This document shows, in pieces, positions 7,432 to 43,785 of a stretch of 64,000 bases of DNA. How positions within the stretch are numbered: position 1 is the stretch's first letter; every line of letters begins with the position of its first letter. The translations under genes and the position numbers were made by a program. A model generated the notes under the pieces. The model was not told the origin of the DNA, did no database searches, and saw only the letters and a list, made by a program, of their open reading frames with translations. The stretch is from Agromyces atrinae (lineage in GTDB: Bacteria > Actinomycetota > Actinomycetes > Actinomycetales > Microbacteriaceae), in NCBI RefSeq assembly GCF_013407835.1, contig NZ_JACCBI010000001.1:1054001-1118000 (forward strand), read 5' to 3'.

Positions 7432-8733
7432 ATGCGTTCCGGCTCACTCACCCCCGACGGTCGCCCGACCGTCGGGGGTGAGTTGCGGCTGCCGAAACCC
7501 CCGGGCGTCATCCGCCAGTTCTGGGCACGACACCCGCGTTTCACCGATGGACTCATCGCCGGTCTCTACGGCGTGCCGAGTCTCATCGGCATCATCGCGA
7601 ACGCCTCGACGGCGGAGTCGGCCTCGACGCCGGGCTCGGGCTACGCCGTCGCCCTCGCGGTCATCGCGACACTCGCCGTGACCGCAGTGCTCGCCCTTGC
7701 GCGCCGGTCGCGCCCCTGGCTCCTGATGTCGGCGGCGTGGGTCGTCTGCCTCGCCGTGGCGCCGTCGGCCCCCGTCGACCTCGTCGCCGTCGTCATCGCG
7801 CTCTATGGACTCGGCGTGTACCGATCGACCCGATCGGCCTGGATCGGCTTCGGCGCCTCGGTCGTCGTCGGCTGGGTCGCGACGGCGCTCACCGTCGGTC
7901 TCTACCGGGTCGACGACGTCGAACCCTTCGGTGCCACGGCGCCCGCCTCGGCGAGTCAGTTCGCCATCTTCATGCTCATCGCCACCCTCATCGGCATCAC
8001 GGTCGGCAATCGTCGGCGGTATCTTGACGCTCTTATCGGCCGCGCTCACGATCTCGCGCACGAGCGCGATCAGCAGGCGAAGCTCGCGACGGCCGCCGAG
8101 CGATCGCGCATCGCCCGCGAGATGCACGACATCGTGTCGCACAACCTCACGGTCATGGTGACCCTCGCCGAGGGCGCCGCCTCGACGACCGAGCGCGACG
8201 CCGAGCGAGCGGCGTCGGCCATGCGGCACGTCGCCGAGACGGGGCGCGATGCTCTCGGCGAGATGCGACGCATGCTCGGGGTGCTCTCGTCGGCCGACGA
8301 GGACTCGAGTGCGCGATCGCCGCAGCCGGGCGCGGGCGATGTGCTCGAACTCGTCGACGACGCCCGCCGTGCCGGCCTACCGATCGAGTTGAACTGGTCG
8401 GGTGCGGCGCCGACCGATACGACGCTCTCCCTCACGGTGTACCGCATCGTGCAGGAGGCTCTCACGAACATCATGCGGCACGCTCGCGGCGTCGCCCACG
8501 TGAGCGTCATCGTCCGCGCCACGGCCGAGAGCATCGAGCTCACCGTCGACGACGACGGCCCCGCACAGCCCGACCGCACGAGCGACGGCCACGAGCGCGG
8601 CATCCTGGGTATGCGGGAACGTGTCGCGCTCTACGGCGGGACGCTCGTCGCCGGGGCGCTCACTCCGCGCGGGTGGCGCGTGCACGCCGTCATCCCCGTT
8701 CCCCCGACCACGACGACACCGGAGGCCCCGTGA
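7432..8733 (+). CDS. sensor histidine kinase (HisKA_3 family)
   Basis: A 433-residue NarL-class sensor kinase. About five membrane helices lie between residues 42 and 195 with very short loops, so there is no real extracellular sensor domain. A dimerisation domain contains REMHDIVSHNL (phospho-acceptor H232), followed by an HATPase domain with NIMRHA and GILGMRER. The start at 7432 rests on a leaderless -10 box. It places codons 6-17 inside a perfect 17-bp inverted repeat, so a later start such as TTG at 7483 is possible. It overlaps its response regulator by GTGA. The intramembrane-sensing layout and exporter neighbour suggest sensing of a membrane-acting drug or the exporter itself. Confidence 0.9.
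   Translation: MRSGSLTPDGRPTVGGELRLPKPPGVIRQFWARHPRFTDGLIAGLYGVPSLIGIIANASTAESASTPGSGYAVALAVIATLAVTAVLALARRSRPWLLMSAAWVVCLAVAPSAPVDLVAVVIALYGLGVYRSTRSAWIGFGASVVVGWVATALTVGLYRVDDVEPFGATAPASASQFAIFMLIATLIGITVGNRRRYLDALIGRAHDLAHERDQQAKLATAAERSRIAREMHDIVSHNLTVMVTLAEGAASTTERDAERAASAMRHVAETGRDALGEMRRMLGVLSSADEDSSARSPQPGAGDVLELVDDARRAGLPIELNWSGAAPTDTTLSLTVYRIVQEALTNIMRHARGVAHVSVIVRATAESIELTVDDDGPAQPDRTSDGHERGILGMRERVALYGGTLVAGALTPRGWRVHAVIPVPPTTTTPEAP
7447..7482 (+). terminator. perfect 17-bp inverted repeat in kinase 5' end
   Basis: Two 17-nt arms (7447-7463 and 7466-7482) are exact complements separated only by CC; the arm reads CTCACCCCCGACGGTCG. It begins 25 nt after the exporter stop, where a terminator is expected, yet lies inside the first 17 codons of the annotated kinase. 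It has no U-tract. It may be a terminator overlapping a leaderless gene start, or an attenuator. Confidence 0.6.
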
Positions 8734-9458: not shown

Positions 9459-12023
9459 ATGCCCGCAGCCAATCTGACCCGCCTCGAAGCCGAGGAACGC
9501 TCGTCGAACGTCCGAGTCGACCGCTACGAGATCGCCCTGGATCTCACGCGCGGAGCCGAACGATTCGGCTCCGAGACGCACGTGTGGTTCGAGGCCCGGC
9601 CGGGCTCCTCGACGTTCATCGAGGCGACGACGACGAGCATCCACGAGATCCGTCTCAACGGCGTCGGCCTGGACCCCACCGTCGTGAGCGACGGCACGCG
9701 CATCCGGCTCGACGGTCTGGCTGCGGAGAACGAGCTCGTCGTCGTGAGCGATGCGTTCTACACGAACTCGGGCGAGGGTCTGCACCGCTTCGTCGACCCC
9801 GTCGACGACAGCGTCTACCTCTACACGGAGTTCGCCGTCGCCGAGGCGAACCGTGTCTTCGCGGTGTTCGACCAGCCCGACCTCAAGGCGAGCTTCCAGT
9901 TCACGATCACCGCCCCCTCCGAGTGGCAGGTGCTGAGCAATGCGCCGACCCCTCTTCCCGTCGACGGTCTCGAAGACGGCACCGCGGTGTGGGAGTTCGA
10001 TGCCGGCCCCGTCATCTCGAGCTACATCGCGGCGATCATCGCCGGTCCCTACGCCGTGTGGCGGAGCGCCGCCGAGACGCGGAGCGGCCGCGTCGTGCCG
10101 CTCGGGGTGTTCACGCGCGCGTCCCTCGCCGCGCACGCCGAGCCCGACGTGCTCTTCGACACCGTGCGCGCCGGCATCGAGTTCTACGAGACGTCGTACG
10201 GCGTCGACTTCCCGTACGACAAGTACGACCAGATCTTCGTGCCCGAGTACAACTGGGGTGCGATGGAGAACGTCGGGGCGGTGACCTTCAACGAGGCGTA
10301 CCTGTTCCGCTCCAAGGTCTCCGACGCGCGGAAGGAACAGCGCACGATCGTCATCCTGCACGAGCTCTCGCACATGTGGTTCGGCAATCTCGTCACGATG
10401 AAATGGTGGAACGACCTGTGGCTGAACGAGTCGTTCGCCACGTGGACGTCGACGGATGCTACCGCACAGGCGACACCGTTCACCGATGCCTGGGCGACGT
10501 TCGCGTCGATCGAGAAGACCGACGCCGCCCGGCAGGACCAGCTGCCGTCGACGCACCCGATCGTCGCCGAGATCCGCGATCTCGAAGACGTCGAGGTCAA
10601 CTTCGACGGCATCACCTACGACAAGGGCGCCTCGGTCATCAAGCAGCTCGTCGCCTGGGTCGGCAGCGAGGCCTTCTACTCGGGGGTCGGCGCCTACCTC
10701 CGCACGCACCGCGAGGGCAACGCGACGCTTCGCGACCTCCTCGACGAACTCGAGACGGCGAGTGGTCGTACTCTCGGCGAGTGGTCGGCTCTCTGGCTCG
10801 AGACCGCGGGCGTCAACACTCTGCGTCCGCAGATCGAGACGGATGACGCGGGAGCGATCATCCGGTTCGACATCGAACAGACGGCGTCCGAGGACCACCC
10901 GACGCTCCGTCCGCACCGGCTCGCCGTGGGCTTCTACGACCTCGACGGCGACGCGGTCGTCCGCACCGCGCGGTTCGAACTGGATGTCGCGGGCTCCTCG
11001 ACCGCAGTGGCCGACGCGATCGGGCGTGCACGTCCCGACCTCGTGCTGCTGAACGACGACGACCTCACGTACGCGAAGATCCGTCTCGACGAGGCATCCC
11101 TCGCGTTCGCCCTCGACAACCTCGATCGCATCGACGACCCCGTCGCGCGGATCCTGGTCTGGGGCTCGGTGTGGGACGCCGTGCGCGACGCCGAGATGCC
11201 CGCGAGCGACTTCGTGCGCCTCGTCGTCGGCAACATCGGCCACGAATCGCAGTCGACGACGCGGAATACCGCCCTCGGACAGCTCGAGACCGCTCTCGAC
11301 CGCTACGTCGATCCCGACACCCGGCACTCGCTCGCCGTGCACGCGGCCGACTCCGTGTGGGCGTTGGTGCAGCTCGCCGAGACCGGCTCCGACGCGCAGT
11401 TCCAGTTCCTCCGCGCCTTCATCCGCATCGCCGAGACGCCCGGGCACCACGAGATCCTCTCCGGTCTCCTCGACGGCCGGACGAGCGTGGACGGCATCGA
11501 GATCGACACCGACCTCCGTTGGGAACTCGTCATCGCCCTCGCGGCCGCGGGCGTCGCTCGCGATGCCGACATCGACGCGGCCCTCGCACTCGACCCCACC
11601 GCGAAGGGCGGACAGCTGGCTGCGACGGCTCGAGCGGCCCGCCCGGATGCCGCGGTGAAGCGCGACGCCTGGACGGCCGTCGCGACCGACGAGAGCCTCT
11701 CCAACGACCTCGTCCGTGCGCTGTCGGCCGGCTGGCGCCGCGCTCGGCCGGCGTCGCTGCTCGAGGAGAGCACCGAGCCCTACTTCGCGATGCTCGAGTC
11801 GGTGTGGGCGGCGCGGAGCTTCACGATGGCCGAACTCATCGTCGACGGCCTCTTCCCGACTCCCCTCGTGTCGCACGACGTCGCGCGCGCCGCCCGCGAA
11901 TGGCTCGATCGAGAGGGACAGGCTCCCGCCCTTCGACGCATCATCGCCGAGCACCTCTCCGAACTCGAACGCGCCCTCGCCGCGCGGGCCGCCGACGCGC
12001 TCCGCTCAGGCGACACGCAGTAG
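9459..12023 (+). CDS. pepN: aminopeptidase N (M1 family), copy 2
   Basis: An 854-residue M1 zinc aminopeptidase, clearly paralogous to the protein encoded at 3047 along its whole length. GAMEN is at residue 267, the zinc motif HELSH at 301-305, and the third ligand at E324 in LNESFATW. The first-shell motifs are intact, so both copies should be active. The copies differ near the active site (NWGAMEN against NAGAMEN, HELSH against HELAH) and in the C-terminal domain, which suggests different substrate range. GGGAGG precedes the ATG by 7 nt. The two copies are separated only by the exporter and two-component genes. Confidence 0.95.
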   Translation: MPAANLTRLEAEERSSNVRVDRYEIALDLTRGAERFGSETHVWFEARPGSSTFIEATTTSIHEIRLNGVGLDPTVVSDGTRIRLDGLAAENELVVVSDAFYTNSGEGLHRFVDPVDDSVYLYTEFAVAEANRVFAVFDQPDLKASFQFTITAPSEWQVLSNAPTPLPVDGLEDGTAVWEFDAGPVISSYIAAIIAGPYAVWRSAAETRSGRVVPLGVFTRASLAAHAEPDVLFDTVRAGIEFYETSYGVDFPYDKYDQIFVPEYNWGAMENVGAVTFNEAYLFRSKVSDARKEQRTIVILHELSHMWFGNLVTMKWWNDLWLNESFATWTSTDATAQATPFTDAWATFASIEKTDAARQDQLPSTHPIVAEIRDLEDVEVNFDGITYDKGASVIKQLVAWVGSEAFYSGVGAYLRTHREGNATLRDLLDELETASGRTLGEWSALWLETAGVNTLRPQIETDDAGAIIRFDIEQTASEDHPTLRPHRLAVGFYDLDGDAVVRTARFELDVAGSSTAVADAIGRARPDLVLLNDDDLTYAKIRLDEASLAFALDNLDRIDDPVARILVWGSVWDAVRDAEMPASDFVRLVVGNIGHESQSTTRNTALGQLETALDRYVDPDTRHSLAVHAADSVWALVQLAETGSDAQFQFLRAFIRIAETPGHHEILSGLLDGRTSVDGIEIDTDLRWELVIALAAAGVARDADIDAALALDPTAKGGQLAATARAARPDAAVKRDAWTAVATDESLSNDLVRALSAGWRRARPASLLEESTEPYFAMLESVWAARSFTMAELIVDGLFPTPLVSHDVARAAREWLDREGQAPALRRIIAEHLSELERALAARAADALRSGDTQ

Positions 12024-12045
12024 GGGTTCAGTAGGCTCTCTGCAC

Positions 12046-13086
12046 ATGAACAGACTGGCGACCGGCGACTTCTGGGCCGACCTCGGCACGTGGTGGGGCG
12101 AGCAGGGCGGAGTCATTCTCGGCAAGGCGATCAACGTCATCGTCATCGTCGCGGTGGCCCTGCTGATCCGTTGGATCCTGCATCTCGTCATCCGTCGCGT
12201 CGTCGACAACATCGTGAACGGTGTCAAGCGCAAGCAGGATGTCACCGACACGCAAGCGCTTCAAGCGTCGCCCCTCGCCGCGGTACGACTCGTGCAGCGC
12301 ACGCGCACGCTCGGCTCCGTGCTGACGAACGTCGTCAACGTCACGCTGTTCATCGTCGTCGTGCTCATGATCGTCGGGGTCATCGACTCGACGATCCTCG
12401 GATCGTTCGCGCTGCTGTCGGCGGCGATCGGCGCCGGCCTCGGTTTCGGCGCCCAGAACATCGTCAAGGACGCGCTCAACGGCCTGTTCATGGTCGTCGA
12501 AGACCAGCTCGGCGTGGGCGACATCGTCGACCTCGGCCCGGTCACGGGCGTCGTCGAGGATGTCCGGATCCGCGTGACGCAAGTGCGCGACGTGAACGGA
12601 ACACTCTGGTTCGTGCGGAACGGCGAGATCCTCCGCGTCGGCAACATGTCGCAGGGCTGGGCGCGCGTCATCCTCGACATCACGGTGCCGTACGAGACCG
12701 ACGTCGACGGGGTCGAGTCCGAGATCCTCGCGACCGCGGTCGACATGGCGCAGAACAGCAAGTGGCGTTCGCGCATCCTCGAGCGGCCCGAGGTCTGGGG
12801 CCTCGAATCGATCGTCGAGGGCGCACTCGTCATCCGCCTCGTCGTCAAGGTGCGCACATCCTCGAAGGACGACATCGCCCGCGAACTGCGCATGCGACTG
12901 AAGCGTGCTCTCGACGACATGGGCGTGAAGGTTCCGAGCCTCGCCGCGGTCGTCCTCACCGGTTTCGACGAGGCGACGCGCGTCAAGGGCGCCCGTCCGC
13001 CGAAGACGAAGCCCAACTCCGTCGTCCCGCACGTGACGACCACGAAGCCGAAGAGATTCGGAAAGAAGCCACCGGAGGGCTCATGA
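12046..13086 (+). CDS. MscS-family mechanosensitive channel
   Basis: A 346-residue small-conductance mechanosensitive channel that releases solutes on hypo-osmotic shock. Membrane helices lie near residues 23-48, 95-118 and 122-150; the last is the Ala/Gly-rich pore helix ([20 protein letters not shown]). The MscS beta domain follows ([20 protein letters not shown]), with a basic C-terminal tail. The ATG at 12046 follows TAGGCT (12032-12037) by 8 nt, close to the leaderless pattern, and no Shine-Dalgarno sequence is seen. The long open frame upstream is the shadow of pepN. It overlaps the globin gene by ATGA. Confidence 0.93.
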
Positions 13087-35086: not shown

Positions 35087-36618
35087 CAGAGCGCACCTTC
35101 CTCGGTCGCAGCCATTTCGTGCGGGGTGAGCGACGGCGCCTTCGCGAGCAGCGGGCCGCCCCACTGGTCTTCGAGTAGTCGCTCGAGAGCGCCGCCGACA
35201 CCGTAGAGTCGAGCGTCCTCGCGAGCCGGCGCCAGGAACTGGATGCCGACGGGGAGTCCGTCTTCGTCGGCGAGGCCGGCGGGCACCGAGATGCCCGGTA
35301 CGCCCGCGAGGTTCGCGGGGATCGTCGCGATGTCGTTGAGGTACATCGCGAGCGGGTCGTCGAGCTTCTCGCCGAGACGGAACGCCGTCGTCGGGGCCGT
35401 CGGCGAGGCGAGCACGTCGACGCCGGCGAACGCGGCGTCGAAGTCGCGCTGCACGAGCGTGCGCACCTTCTGGGCGCTGCCGTAGTAGGCGTCGTAGTAG
35501 CCGGCCGACAGGGCGTAGGTGCCGAGGATGATGCGTCGCTTCGTCTCGGGGCCGAAGCCGGCCTCACGCGTCGCCGCCATGACCTGCTCGACCGTTCCGC
35601 CGCCCTCGGGGTTCACCCGGAGGCCGAAGCGCACCGAGTCGAACTTGGCGAGGTTCGACGACGCCTCGGCGGGCATGATCAGGTAGTACGCCGCGACGGC
35701 GTACTCGAAGTGCGGGGCGCTGACCTCGACGATCTCGGCACCGTTCTTCTCGAGCAGCGCGAGAGCCTCGTGGAAACGCGCGAGGACGCCGGCCTGGAAG
35801 CCTTCGCCGTCGAGTTCGCGGATCACTCCGATACGCAAGCCCGCGACATCCGCTCGCCGCACGGCGTCGGCCATGGACGGCCAGGTGCCGGGGATCGACG
35901 TCGAGTCCTTCGGGTCGTGTCCGCCGATGATGTCGTGGAGCAGAGCCGCGTCGAGCACGGTGCGCGTGACGGGGCCGATCTGGTCGAGCGACGAGGCGAG
36001 CGCGATCGAGCCGTAGCGGCTGACGGCGCCGTAGGTCGGCTTCACGCCGACCGTGCCCGTGACGTGAGCGGGCTGGCGGATCGAGCCGCCCGTGTCGCTG
36101 CCGAGGGCGAGGGGCGCCTCGAAGGCGGCGACGGCCGCGGCCGAACCGCCGCCGGAGCCGCCGGGGATGCGGTCGAGGTCCCAGGGGTTGTGCGTCGGAC
36201 CGTACGCGGAGTGCTCGGTCGACGAACCCATGGCGAATTCGTCCATGTTCGTCTTGCCGAGAGGGATGAGACCGGCTTCGCGGATGCGCGTGACGGGCGT
36301 CGCATCGTACGGCGGGAGCCAGCCCTCGAGGATGCGGGAGCCGGCCGTCGAGGGCATGCCCTTCGTGACGAGCACGTCCTTGATTGCGATGGGGACGCCG
36401 GCGAGCTCGTGGAGCGACTCGCCCGCGGCGCGGCGGCGGTCGACATCGGCAGCCGTCTCGAGGGCGTGCTCGCCCGCGACGTGCAGGAAGGCGTGGACGG
36501 CGCCGTCGACCGCGTCGATGCGGTCGAGGTGGGCGCGGGTCGCCTCGACGGACGACACGTCGCCCGCGCGGAGTGCTTCGCCGAGCGCGCTCGCGCTCAG
36601 TCGGGTGAGGTCGCTCAC
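35086..36618 (-). CDS. gatA: Asp/Glu-tRNA amidotransferase subunit A
   Basis: A 510-residue amidase-signature protein that hydrolyses glutamine to supply ammonia to GatB. The Ser-cisSer-Lys triad is visible as the Lys in [10 protein letters not shown] (near residue 80) and the serines in [14 protein letters not shown] and [11 protein letters not shown]. The GTG start overlaps the gatC stop by GTGA. Full length. Confidence 0.96.
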
Positions 36619-36993: not shown

Positions 36994-38808
36994 TCAGTCG
37001 ACCGCACGGGCTCCGAACAGCCCCACGCCGTGGGTGTGCAGGGCCTTGTACGCGTCGCCGTAGGTCTGCGGTTCTTCATCGTCGGGCACCCCCGCGCGCG
37101 CGAGCAGCAGTCCGAGCAGACCGCGCGCGGGCGGGCTCAGGGGCTTGTCCTTATGGGCGTGAGCCGGGTGCGGCGCCGTCGCCTGCGGGTTCGGCGGGAG
37201 GTACTGCGGCGTCGGGGAGGGCCACGTCGACGGATGACGGGGGCTCGAGCGGTTCACGATCGAGAACAGGTCGTTGGCGCCTTCGTCGCGCCGTGTCAGC
37301 GGCTTCAGACCGTGGCGACGATTGAGCGTCGAGATGACGGAGCCGTGATGCATCTCATCGTGGATGATCGTTCCCGATCGCGTGTACGCGGAGATCGCGA
37401 TGGCCGGCACACGGCACCCGAGGCGATCGAAGCCGAACCCCATCTCACCGGCCCCCGCGCTCGTCGGCGGTTCGGCCTCGGGCGGCGCGACATGGTCGAA
37501 GGTGCCCCCGTGCTCGTCGAAGGTGATGAGCAGCATGGTGTTGAGCGCATTCGACCCCGTCGGCGAGGCGCTCGACTTCACGGCGTTGTAGATCTGGAAG
37601 ATCAGCGCCTCTCCGGCGCGCACGTCGGAGACGGCGCTGTCGATGACGGTCGAGCCGTCGACCGCACTCTCGCGGAGCGTACCGAAGGGCGGGTGGAAGT
37701 CGTTGTGGTTGTACGTCATGCGGGGCTCGATGAACGCATAGGCCGGCAGCGTTCCCTCCCGAGCATCGCGGTAGAACTGGTCCATCGTGGCGAAGTGGTC
37801 GGTCGCCCAGTACTTCTCGAGCGTCGGCGCGTGGAGCACGCCGGTGAACGAGACGAGCTGCAGTTCGTCGAAGTAGATGCGCCAACTGAGCCCCGCGTCT
37901 TCGAGCCTGTTGAAGATCGTCGGGATGGGGTCGGCATCGAGCCACTTGTCGTATCCGCCGCCGTGCTTGTTGGTGACGAAGCCGTGCGACTGCGACGCGT
38001 GGAAGAACGACCGGTTGCAGAACGTCTGCGAGGGAACGGCGCAGAACCAGTGGTCGAACACCGCGAACTCCTTCGCGAGCGTCGAGAGCACCGGAAGCAT
38101 CTCGGGCGAGAAGCCGCCCATGATCTGCGCGGCCTCCTCGCTCGACGGTGCGACGCCCTTCTTCAGTCGTTCGTAGTTGATGACGTAGTCGGCGAGGAAG
38201 CCGTCCATCGTCGGTGCCGTGCCCGCGGCGGGGGCGTTGAAGGGGGCCGCCATCGCTTCGACGTAGAGCTTCGCGTTCGATGCCGGATCGACCGTTCCGA
38301 AGATCTGCGTGTTGACGTGGGGGAACTCTTCGCCCGGGTCGGGGTTCGGCATGCCCATCACCGTGTCGGTCGCCCCGTCGTAGACATGAGCGGCGACGCG
38401 CGAGCCGTCGGGGGCCGTGTTGGCGTAGTCGCCGAACGCGAGCCCGTCGAAGGATTCGCCCGACGGAAGCGTGTCGGGCGTGTAGAGCCACCCGAGGAGG
38501 TTGTCGAAGGACCGGTTCTCGCCCATGACGACGATGAGGTGGTCGAAACCGGCGACCTCGCGCGGGTTGAGTGCCGCGAAGTCGTCGGCACCCTCGGCGA
38601 ACCCGAGCTGGTGACCGATCGCTGCGCCCGTCGCGCCGCCGGCCGCTCCCCCGACGACCACTCCGGCCGCGGCGATGCCGCCGTACTTCAGGAAGTCGCG
38701 ACGCGACGATCCCGGCCCGGATGTCTCGTCGACGGAATCAGACCGGCTCGAAATAGACCGGCTCGAATCAGGCTGGCTCGAATCGACCCGCTTCTTCCCT
38801 CGCGCCAT
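36994..38808 (-). CDS. Tat-exported phosphoesterase (phospholipase C type)
   Basis: A 604-residue alkaline-phosphatase-superfamily phosphoesterase (PF04185: acid phosphatase / phospholipase C). The long N-terminus contains a Tat motif SSRRDFLKYGG near residue 34, followed by a Gly/Ala/Val signal segment to about 65. The catalytic domain opens FDHLIVVMGENRSFDNLLGW, where the Asn/Glu-Asn region binds metal and substrate. It continues through WFCAVPSQTFCNRSFFHA and TFDEHGGTFDHVAPP. The first 33 residues are Ser/Asp/Arg-rich with pentapeptide repeats. It sits between ligA and gatC, whose genes are housekeeping. Substrate (phospholipid or phosphate monoester) cannot be decided. Confidence 0.88.
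   Translation of the reverse strand: MARGKKRVDSSQPDSSRSISSRSDSVDETSGPGSSRRDFLKYGGIAAAGVVVGGAAGGATGAAIGHQLGFAEGADDFAALNPREVAGFDHLIVVMGENRSFDNLLGWLYTPDTLPSGESFDGLAFGDYANTAPDGSRVAAHVYDGATDTVMGMPNPDPGEEFPHVNTQIFGTVDPASNAKLYVEAMAAPFNAPAAGTAPTMDGFLADYVINYERLKKGVAPSSEEAAQIMGGFSPEMLPVLSTLAKEFAVFDHWFCAVPSQTFCNRSFFHASQSHGFVTNKHGGGYDKWLDADPIPTIFNRLEDAGLSWRIYFDELQLVSFTGVLHAPTLEKYWATDHFATMDQFYRDAREGTLPAYAFIEPRMTYNHNDFHPPFGTLRESAVDGSTVIDSAVSDVRAGEALIFQIYNAVKSSASPTGSNALNTMLLITFDEHGGTFDHVAPPEAEPPTSAGAGEMGFGFDRLGCRVPAIAISAYTRSGTIIHDEMHHGSVISTLNRRHGLKPLTRRDEGANDLFSIVNRSSPRHPSTWPSPTPQYLPPNPQATAPHPAHAHKDKPLSPPARGLLGLLLARAGVPDDEEPQTYGDAYKALHTHGVGLFGARAVD
38741..38785 (-). repeat. three 15-bp tandem repeats in signal region
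   Basis: Units at 38741-38755, 38756-38770 and 38771-38785 (type GACCGGCTCGAATCA) differ by a few bases. In frame they encode pentapeptides DSSQP, DSSRS, ISSRS ahead of the Tat signal. Because the unit is a multiple of three, copy-number change would not shift the frame. Confidence 0.7.
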
Positions 38809-38849: not shown

Positions 38850-41192
<2,343 letters not shown>

Positions 41193-41317
41193 GGACTGAC
41201 CACCGACGTTCTCCGTGCGACGTCGCGAAACCCGCCGAACGGTAACGGGGCCGTCGGCGCCGGGCAGAAGCGTCGCCACTTCCTGCATGATGGGGTACGT
41301 CGAAGGAGCAGCACACG

Positions 41318-42472
41318 GTGAAGTACTTTCTTGTCGCACCCGTCGAGGGTGCGGGCACGACGCCCCCGCCCCCGCCCGTCACAGCGAGCGACGGGTCGCG
41401 CTCGCGCATCCTCGGCACGGGCGTCGCGGTCCGCAGCAGACTCGATCACCGTCAGAGCGAACTGCACCAGGAGTGGCGGGGCGTCTCGCCCGAGCGGTTG
41501 GCTCGCGCAGCACCGGCCGGTTTCCGCATCGAGGCGGCCTGGCTCGTCGCATCGCGGTCGGAGTCCGTGCTCGCCGCCCTCGTCGAGCACACCGACGCGG
41601 CGAGCGCACCGCTCGACGTCCTCACGATCGAGGCGGCGCTCAGCGATGTGGCCGCCGCGATCCTCCGATCGTCCGATGCGCCCGCCGACGCTCAGCTGCT
41701 GTGGGTCAATCGCACCGTCCTCCTGCCGAACGACACGGCCGTGCCCGCGCAGTGGAACGACGCGTCGATCGTGACCGCCGAACTCGTCGCGAGCAGCGCG
41801 GAGCCACCGATCCTCGCCGACTTCGGGTGGGGTAACAACGCGGTGCGCGGCTGGCCTCCCGGCGACGACGCGATGGCGCAGCAGATCCTCATGGGCCTCG
41901 TCGATGCGCAGACCGTGTGGCGCGAGATCGAAGCGCTCTCGGCCGAATCGGCGCGCATCGTGCACAACGTCGTCGATCGTGACTCCGTCGCTCGGCGACG
42001 CGGCTACCAGAGCACGCTCGACGACCTGCAGAAGCTCTCGGCGGGCATGGCCGCCCACCACCTCGCCTACGACGACGTGCTCCTCAGCATCCAGGGCGCA
42101 CGGCGCGCGGCGGCACGCGCGTCCCTCTCGGCCTGGAACTACGACGAGGTGGCCGAGCGCGTCGGCCGACGGATCTCCGACATCGCCGCCGTCATCCGTC
42201 AACGGAAGGACGCGCTCGACCGCACCTATCAGGGTCTCGTCGGCGCGATCGGTGTCGTGCTCTCCCTCGTGGTCTTCATCGACCTCTTACTGTCGTTCAT
42301 CTCGACGTCGTTCTCGGGGGTCGACGCGGTCCCCGGCACGGGTTCGCCGCTCGGCGTCCTGAGCTGGTTCCGATCGGTCGAGACCGACTGGCTGTTCGCC
42401 GCGACGGCCGGAATCATCCTCCTCGTCATCGGCCTGCTGGCGCTCTCGCGACGCGCACGGAGAGCCGTATGA
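41318..42472 (+). CDS. membrane protein of unknown function, partner of lyase-fold gene
   Basis: A 384-residue protein I do not recognise. A short N-terminal segment (MKYFLVAPV) is followed by a proline run, then a soluble domain to about residue 200 (RIEAAWLVASRSESVLAALVE; AQLLWVNRTVLLPND). A long helical region (about 200-300) comes next, and two membrane helices (about 305-328 and 357-377) end in a basic tail. Helical body plus C-terminal membrane pair recalls CorA-like topology, but the CorA GMN motif is absent. GTG at 41318 has GAAGGAG 9 nt upstream. It overlaps the next gene by ATGA and must be co-translated with it. Confidence 0.7.
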   Translation: MKYFLVAPVEGAGTTPPPPPVTASDGSRSRILGTGVAVRSRLDHRQSELHQEWRGVSPERLARAAPAGFRIEAAWLVASRSESVLAALVEHTDAASAPLDVLTIEAALSDVAAAILRSSDAPADAQLLWVNRTVLLPNDTAVPAQWNDASIVTAELVASSAEPPILADFGWGNNAVRGWPPGDDAMAQQILMGLVDAQTVWREIEALSAESARIVHNVVDRDSVARRRGYQSTLDDLQKLSAGMAAHHLAYDDVLLSIQGARRAAARASLSAWNYDEVAERVGRRISDIAAVIRQRKDALDRTYQGLVGAIGVVLSLVVFIDLLLSFISTSFSGVDAVPGTGSPLGVLSWFRSVETDWLFAATAGIILLVIGLLALSRRARRAV

Positions 42473-43785
42473 ACGCCCCGAACGTCTCGAGGGCCGCTCT
42501 CGGCCGCGTCGTCGCGAGCCTCGCGACGCGCTCTCCCGCGCCGGCCTGGCGGGAAGCACGCGAACGCATCGTCGCCGAGCGCGCGGCCGTCGACGGTCTC
42601 CTCTCGGCGGACCCGGTTCCGAGCATCTACGGATTCACGACCCTCCTCGGCCACCTCGACGCCGAGCTCACCGGAGTCGACGACGTGCACGCGACCCAGC
42701 GTCTGCTCCTCGAGAGCCACCTCATCGGCGACGCCTACGACATCTCGGCATCCGTCGCCCGTCTCGTGTCGGCCGCGAAGACCGAGCAGCTGCACCAGGG
42801 CGGCAGCGGCATCGATCCCGACCTCTACGACCTCGTCGTCGAGTCCACGACCCGATTCGACCGGCCGATCCGGGGCGCCTGGTCGGCCTCCTACGGCTCG
42901 GGCGACGTCGTCCCGGCGTCGTGGTGGGCCTCGGCCGTCGTCGGCGACCGCGCACTCGTCAGCGGCAGCACGATCGCCCTCATCAACGGATCGTTCTACG
43001 CCGCGGCCGTCGCGACGCTCGCGTCACTGAAGCTCATCGATGCGACGTCGCGTGTCCTCGCGCTGCTCGCCCGCCACTCGCCCGTCGCCGAGACGGCACC
43101 CGTGCGCGGTGACGGGCTCCCCGCCGAACAACTCGTCTCCGTGTTCGACCGTCATCCGTCGCCGCCTCCGGGCGACGCGCAGGCGCCCGTGAGTCTCCGC
43201 GACTCCGCACCCGTCATCGATACGGCTCTCACGACGTTCCGACACCTGGGCTCCGCCCTCGAACGACGACTCGGCCGCACATCCGCCAACCCGCTCTTCA
43301 TCGGGGAGGGCTCCTCGTTCCGCGCGACGAGCCAGTCGAGCTTCCTCGACCCCGTGCTCACCCTCGCCCTCGGGGATGCCGAGCAACTTGCGCGCCTCGT
43401 GCTCGGCATCGCTCACCGCGTCTCGGTGCACACGGCGGCTGCGGCCGCGTCGACGGGCGCCGCACGCCCCGACCTCGTGCAGCCGCCGAAGGTCATCAGC
43501 GCGCTCATCGAACGCGCCGACCGCCTCGGCGGACGCCCGACGCGCTTCAGCGGCGACGACTCGGAGGGCGTCGAAGACCTCCGCGACGGCGCGCTGCTCT
43601 CGGCGATCACGGTGCTCGAACTCGCGCGCCTCATCGAGGACGCCGTCGACCTCCTCGGCGGACCGGCATCGGATGACGCGGAGGAGATCCGGCGTGCACT
43701 CCAGAGCGAACTGCTGGGCGCCGAAGCACCCGAGGGGCTCGACGAGGCCGTGAGCACGATCGCCCCGAGCCCCTTCTGGTTCTGA
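42469..43785 (+). CDS. divergent histidase/PAL-fold protein with altered MIO motif
   Basis: A 438-residue protein that appears to be a remote member of the aromatic amino acid ammonia-lyase superfamily. PSIYGFTTLLG (residues 51-61) matches the catalytic-Tyr loop VYGVTTGFG. SYGSGDVVPA (141-150) sits where lyases have S-x-GASGDLAPL, so the tripeptide that cyclises to the MIO cofactor would be Gly-Ser-Gly instead of Ala-Ser-Gly. LINGSFYAAA (171-180) matches LLNGT, and NPLF (274-277) matches the late NP motif. It is shorter than true lyases (about 500). Activity is uncertain. It is coupled to the membrane protein gene upstream and convergent with mnmA. Confidence 0.65.
   Translation: MNAPNVSRAALGRVVASLATRSPAPAWREARERIVAERAAVDGLLSADPVPSIYGFTTLLGHLDAELTGVDDVHATQRLLLESHLIGDAYDISASVARLVSAAKTEQLHQGGSGIDPDLYDLVVESTTRFDRPIRGAWSASYGSGDVVPASWWASAVVGDRALVSGSTIALINGSFYAAAVATLASLKLIDATSRVLALLARHSPVAETAPVRGDGLPAEQLVSVFDRHPSPPPGDAQAPVSLRDSAPVIDTALTTFRHLGSALERRLGRTSANPLFIGEGSSFRATSQSSFLDPVLTLALGDAEQLARLVLGIAHRVSVHTAAAAASTGAARPDLVQPPKVISALIERADRLGGRPTRFSGDDSEGVEDLRDGALLSAITVLELARLIEDAVDLLGGPASDDAEEIRRALQSELLGAEAPEGLDEAVSTIAPSPFWF

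Follow-up and report, generated by a model that had tools for sequence, protein, structure and literature searches.

A two-gene cassette of Agromyces atrinae pairs a protein of predicted MIO-lyase fold with a candidate CorA-like membrane protein

Results

A two-gene unit lies between ligA and mnmA

The window, by which we mean the whole 64,000-nucleotide stretch of Agromyces atrinae DNA that was analysed, contains a pair of plus-strand genes between ligA and mnmA, both of which lie on the minus strand. Gene A (41318..42472, +) has a GTG start and encodes a 384-aa membrane protein, while gene B (42469..43785, +) encodes a 438-aa protein predicted to have the fold of MIO lyases; both reading frames are intact. 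The stop codon of A and the start codon of B share the ATGA at 42469..42472 (+), an overlap that probably couples their translation. A preliminary description made from the sequence had called this a two-gene operon with an ATGA overlap, and its coordinates, reading frames and overlap were exact. The start of ligA is divergent from gene A, and the 137-bp spacer between them (41181..41317) holds, as seen by eye, a ribosome-binding-like AAGGAG upstream of A, but yielded no match to a sigma-70-like promoter or a terminator. At the other side, the end of the mnmA frame is 6 bases from the stop codon of B. By eye, the genes flanking the pair look like housekeeping genes. Elsewhere in the window, ARAGORN predicted a tRNA-Sec gene (36007-36098), and the product of a minus-strand frame (36994-38808) has an N-terminus of twin-arginine-like type as well as a GENRSFDN motif and is probably an exported phosphoesterase.

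Gene B belongs to a separate family with the MIO-lyase fold

Gene B matches the Pfam family Lyase_aromatic (PF00221) with an E-value of 1.4e-17 and 64 bits (cutoff 27.3), and the motifs YGFTT, SYGSGD, LINGS and NPLF follow one another in the ammonia-lyase order given in the preliminary description. The fold predicted for B, using hhalign and a structure comparison of the model, is strongly that of the MIO ammonia-lyase superfamily rather than an unrelated one. It is thus a fold in common with the MIO lyases and aminomutases (HAL, PAL, TAL, TAM; PF00221) and with ergothionase, which is in the same structural group. B had also been described as short, and it does have ~70 residues fewer than HutH. 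Judging from the model, most of this shortfall seems to be internal, as residues 9-414 of B are aligned with 9-509 of HAL (the first and last aligned residues only).

Against the NCBIfam hutH equivalog (TIGR01225), B scores 42.4 bits, far below the cutoff of 539, and a separate canonical HutH is encoded elsewhere in its own genome; on these grounds, B as an ordinary HutH was rejected. Considering all cassette-bearing genomes, 8/12 had no canonical HutH at E 1e-10, several being draft or metagenome assemblies. The nearest protein to B is 97% identical, comes from Agromyces atrinae and carries the database name aromatic amino acid ammonia-lyase. A single-sequence search yielded 60 proteins, with only the 8000 candidates sharing the most words being scored, and a profile search (again with 8000 candidates scored) added 9 further members, after which the E-values jump from 5e-81 to 4e-8. 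The family therefore has at least 69 proteins at 90% clustering. Most of these are without a name, and the named ones are actinobacterial (Agromyces, Actinotalea, Georgenia, Brachybacterium, Corynebacterium).

Pocket residues are conserved while the MIO triad varies

MIO lyases are soluble enzymes, and their cofactor-forming Ser is treated as indispensable. The tripeptide of B that corresponds to the MIO triad is G143-S144-G145 (codons at 42895..42903, +), which lies in SYGSGD where canonical enzymes have G-S-x-G-A/C-S-G-D. MAFFT aligns the Gly before the MIO Ser, ungapped, to the Ala/Cys of canonical HutH, whereas HMMER and hhalign place a one-residue gap at this Gly. The claim that Gly-Ser-Gly replaces Ala-Ser-Gly thus stands as far as the Gly before Ser is concerned, but the aligners differ and the exact equivalence is uncertain. 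The accessible portion of a paper on MIO enzyme origins (PMC9002059) refers to neither an ASG nor a GSG triad.

We examined the family in an alignment of 70 rows (A4), comprising the window protein, 67 of the 69 family proteins, and the proteins of loci L036 and L047; P0008 (which by eye has a long out-of-frame N-terminus), P0070 (partial) and the distant P0071-P0076 were left out. The triad is Gly-Ser-Gly in 58/70 rows and differs in the other 12 (GAG in 4, GCG in 2, GSA in 2, SSG in 3 and SSA in 1). The MIO Ser itself is kept in 64/70 rows and is replaced in 6 (4 Ala, 2 Cys; P0007, P0010, P0015, P0018, P0038 and P0039). By eye, these six rows fall at four places in the tree, split by well-supported branches, although a count by the tree tool using the labelled rows only forces fewer than four changes of the Ser. 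They are database proteins, mostly metagenomic, for which the A partner was not seen, and some of them may reflect errors in the sequence or genes in decay. Among canonical HutH controls, the MIO Ser is present in 33/33, albeit in a narrow set in which 24 of the 33 loci are from Agromyces. The control triad is Cys-Ser-Gly, not Ala-Ser-Gly, at 32 of these 33 actinobacterial loci (L003-L030, L100-L103), with ASG at the remaining one (L002).

Several other positions hardly vary in A4: Y54 (69/70, with one row lacking the region), H84 (70/70), N173 (66/70), Q238 (70/70), R244 (70/70), F292 (69/70) and E369 (70/70). We take their HAL equivalents to be Tyr53, His83, Asn195, Gln277, Arg283, Phe329 and Glu414, respectively. 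Y54, S144 and N173 had been put forward earlier as candidate active-site residues; the alignment maps them to Y53, S143 and N195 of HAL, which we presume to be their partners, and they would accordingly lie in the pocket. One position departs from the canonical enzymes throughout: at Tyr280 (Q-D-x-Y-S-L-R), which is Tyr in 33/33 HutH controls, the B family has Val (66) or Ile (4) in all 70 rows. As reported in the accessible part of a study of GkHAL, mutations of Y52, H82, N194 and E411 abolish activity and changes of Q274, R280 and F325 reduce it (PMC11432326). The first four are taken as the equivalents of B Y54, H84, N173 and E369. By these counts, the putative pocket is under strong constraint and the cofactor triad under less, which favours a ligand-handling role that would not always need MIO. 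We also considered a GFP-like chromophore formed from S141-Y142-G143, as this SYG is nearly invariant, but this is not favoured since G143 is Ser in 4/70 rows.

Gene A encodes a divergent membrane protein

The preliminary description could not assign gene A beyond two C-terminal helices. Two hydrophobic helices are indeed predicted, and for A there was no match over the cutoff in Pfam or NCBIfam and none in PADLOC or PHROG, with only weak matches otherwise (best E 0.012). A single-sequence search returned one record, 99% identical and taken to be the window's own protein, and missed the relatives described below. The predicted build is an N-terminal alpha/beta domain that opens with an FLVAP strand, a helical stalk, a long helix running into TM1, and TM2, followed by an Arg-rich C-terminus. 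Fourteen columns are invariant, including W129, R132, W146, WGN 171-173, G193, Q198, W201, W273, R352 and D357. Mean pairwise identity is 25% for A, compared with 33% for B.

This predicted build distantly resembles that of the CorA/Mrs2 magnesium channels (PF01544), with their alpha/beta domain, stalk, long helix into TM1, and TM2. In a Foldseek search with the predicted structure, CorA/Mrs2 proteins occupied rows 1-24 (16 entries), though no row reached E 1e-3 and the TMq of the CorA rows was at most 0.28. The best CorA Z was 8.7, which is not above that of unrelated helical bundles (10.4). A also differs from CorA/Mrs2 in having a longer loop between the helices and in lacking GMN at the end of TM1 (absent in 12/12 A sequences, while YGMN is present in 10/10 CorA controls). 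At E up to 1, the 12 A proteins have matches to 10 families, none of which is PF01544, and hhalign gave a probability of 1.6 against 10 CorA proteins. Identification of A as a CorA by sequence therefore failed (no PF01544 match, the hhalign value). The predicted structure gives moderate support for reading A as a divergent membrane protein of CorA-like type that lacks GMN.

A-family proteins may also occur with a different partner. Searching 164 genomes of the order with an A profile gave three matches, two of them with B and one in genome G047, where the distant A homologue P0077 (E 2.9e-9; hhalign probability 95.9) has no B at its locus; the only lyase-like match of this genome is a canonical HutH elsewhere. 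The gene of P0077 shares 8 bases with the end of a neighbour whose product matches SBP_bac_3 weakly (1.5e-5; 25.2 bits, slightly short of the 26.4 cutoff). Members of SBP_bac_3 often bind amino acids. This second architecture (L122:6588-8922), a single case, consists of the A homologue, the partner, which has an N-terminal hydrophobic stretch, and then an MFS gene.

The pair is conserved but rare

The pairing seen in the window recurs in relatives and is not due to chance: in 12/12 genomes examined, an orthologue of A immediately precedes B, at -4 to +9 bp with the chosen starts, and each genome has exactly one A match. These 12 genomes are the window, 10 loci from a pattern scan of an 84,980-species collection, and G546 from a whole-genome search; G617 and G774 were taken as the same genomes as L031 and L038 and counted once. 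Leaving out L040, whose contig ends inside B, the distances of A and B correlate over 11 pairs (r 0.77, 0/10000 permutations), to which shared host ancestry may add.

The cassette is rare and its spread patchy. At E 1e-25, B was found in 1/398 genomes of the family, 4/396 of the order, 1/394 of the class and 1/396 of the phylum, as well as in 2/111 of the family of G774; these samples are not independent of one another, as they overlap, and the Agromyces atrinae genome itself is counted in each of the first four. The 36 other Agromyces genomes contain no B and nothing stronger than E 2e-6, and the matches that we read as loci are canonical HutH. Searches of phage, plasmid and viral collections gave no copy of B, and searches of viral contigs and plasmids gave none of A.

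At 22 other Agromyces ligA loci, mnmA and ligA are <200 bp apart in 9, separated by a 0.85 to 4.6 kb spacer with other frames in 12, and unresolved in 1 (L059-L079, L084, L088-L099). The mnmA-ligA spacer of Agromyces looks like an insertion hot spot, and given its variability, the cassette was probably inserted there. In the window itself, the pair shows no compositional sign of transfer (GC3 of 0.88 for A, B and ligA and 0.92 for mnmA). The pair at L047 is foreign in composition (0.33-0.34, vs 0.52-0.70 for most other frames and 0.29 for one), and that at L031 less clearly so (0.52-0.58 vs 0.69-0.84 for most neighbours). G546, which has the most foreign cassette composition of the cassette genomes, also bears, ~3.5 kb away from the cassette, a fragment of corA that is interrupted by a stop codon (L047; G546:C1:2093274-2093426). 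tRNA genes were observed ~0.2 kb upstream of the cassette at L031 (tRNA-Val, 8534-8609) and ~0.7 kb downstream at L036 (tRNA-Gly, 11990-12061).

The preliminary description had suggested an undescribed system inserted between ligA and mnmA. Undescribed it appears to be: our searches of the open-licence PMC literature listed no account of the A-B pair, and it is absent from the 36 other Agromyces genomes; the insertion is the likely rather than the demonstrated part. We could not match the combination of A and B to any described system, although each part resembles a known fold. The PADLOC-DB 2023 defence models matched 0/12 A proteins and 0/3 B family members. Among 25 of the 31 PADLOC families for 42 neighbour proteins, with several of the loci on short contigs, there was no cas model. 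The neighbour hits were not accepted as a defence island, as they look like housekeeping cross-matches (a cysteine desulfurase as SspA/DndA, ABC ATPases).

Discussion

The closest arrangement that we found is in type III CRISPR systems, where, in the accessible parts of two papers, a CorA effector, likely a ligand-activated channel, is described beside an NrN phosphodiesterase or a SAM-AMP lyase (PMC10600005, PMC12255297). As in those systems, a divergent CorA-like gene would here adjoin a gene for an enzyme that handles small molecules. Unlike them, the cassette has no recognised cas genes, and its enzyme has the predicted MIO-lyase fold, while, per the same sources, the SAM-AMP lyase is of the PII superfamily. 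B departs from the MIO lyases, too, with its Gly-Ser-Gly (and Ala, Cys or Ser substitutions thereof) in place of Ala/Cys-Ser-Gly, Val/Ile in place of Tyr280, and a membrane-protein partner wherever a locus was seen (12/12).

Our working interpretation, which we put at somewhat below an even chance, is that the cassette is a two-gene sensor/effector module in which B controls A. The conserved pocket, the relaxed triad, the membrane partner and the possible amino-acid-binding partner of an A homologue jointly point to B as a protein that signals or sets the level of an amino-acid-like ligand and thereby controls A. B would be located in the cytosol, presumably as an oligomer, and would have retained the substrate pocket of the MIO fold; it would bind an amino-acid-like ligand and might also convert it, with at least part of the family doing so without the MIO cofactor. 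Control of A could be by direct contact, or B could make or remove a small ligand that A senses; A would then change membrane permeability when the ligand level shifts. Of the possible uses, a role in stress or immunity may be the likeliest, given the analogy to the CorA effectors of type III CRISPR systems. A bolder version, which we regard as rather improbable, is a new ligand-controlled membrane immunity or stress system in which a former MIO lyase with no need of its cofactor, now acting as the sensor or as an enzyme that makes or removes the signal, opens a GMN-less CorA-like pore, and in which relatives of A plug into other amino-acid-binding partners.

The retention of Ser in 64/70 rows, together with that of the residues matching all four essential ones of GkHAL, is just as compatible with an active MIO enzyme. 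B could be an ammonia-lyase or aminomutase that has a new range of substrates and builds its cofactor from Gly-Ser-Gly, with A either anchoring it at the membrane or transporting its substrate, its product or ammonium, the two forming a small metabolic module. We consider this unlikely on balance but a serious contender: the lyase fold predicted for B is complete, and the constant Val/Ile at the Tyr280 position would be in keeping with a remodelled pocket. However, Ala occupies the MIO-forming position in 4/70 rows (mostly metagenomic proteins that may be errors or decayed), the spread is rare and patchy, no obvious pathway genes lie beside the pair by eye, and a carrier with just two helices would be unlikely.

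Tight coupling of two genes, patchy spread, variable sites and a fast-changing membrane partner would also be expected of a toxin/antitoxin-like pair acting in addiction or abortive infection, with A as a membrane-active toxin and B as a former lyase that neutralises it in the cytosol. The large conserved soluble domain of A, in which W, R, N and Q occur at invariant positions, is unlike small membrane toxins, and a mere neutraliser would have no need of pocket residues conserved in 70/70 rows; this explanation is improbable. Least probable by far is a duplicate or decaying HutH copy beside an unrelated membrane gene. The PF00221 assignment and the name of the 97% identical relative point that way, but B belongs to a separate family with motifs conserved across 70 rows and a hutH score of a small fraction of the cutoff, a canonical HutH is encoded elsewhere in the genome, and the pairing with A holds in 12/12 genomes.

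Returning to the sensor/effector module, B keeps the pocket of an MIO lyase, varies the triad and is paired, in every genome examined, with a partner that may be CorA-like, so that the family may represent a new route to MIO or else the reuse of an enzyme fold as a sensor. If true, the module would join CRISPR CorA as another example in which a CorA-like protein is linked to an enzyme acting on small molecules, and the A-B pair offers it as a testable two-gene cassette.
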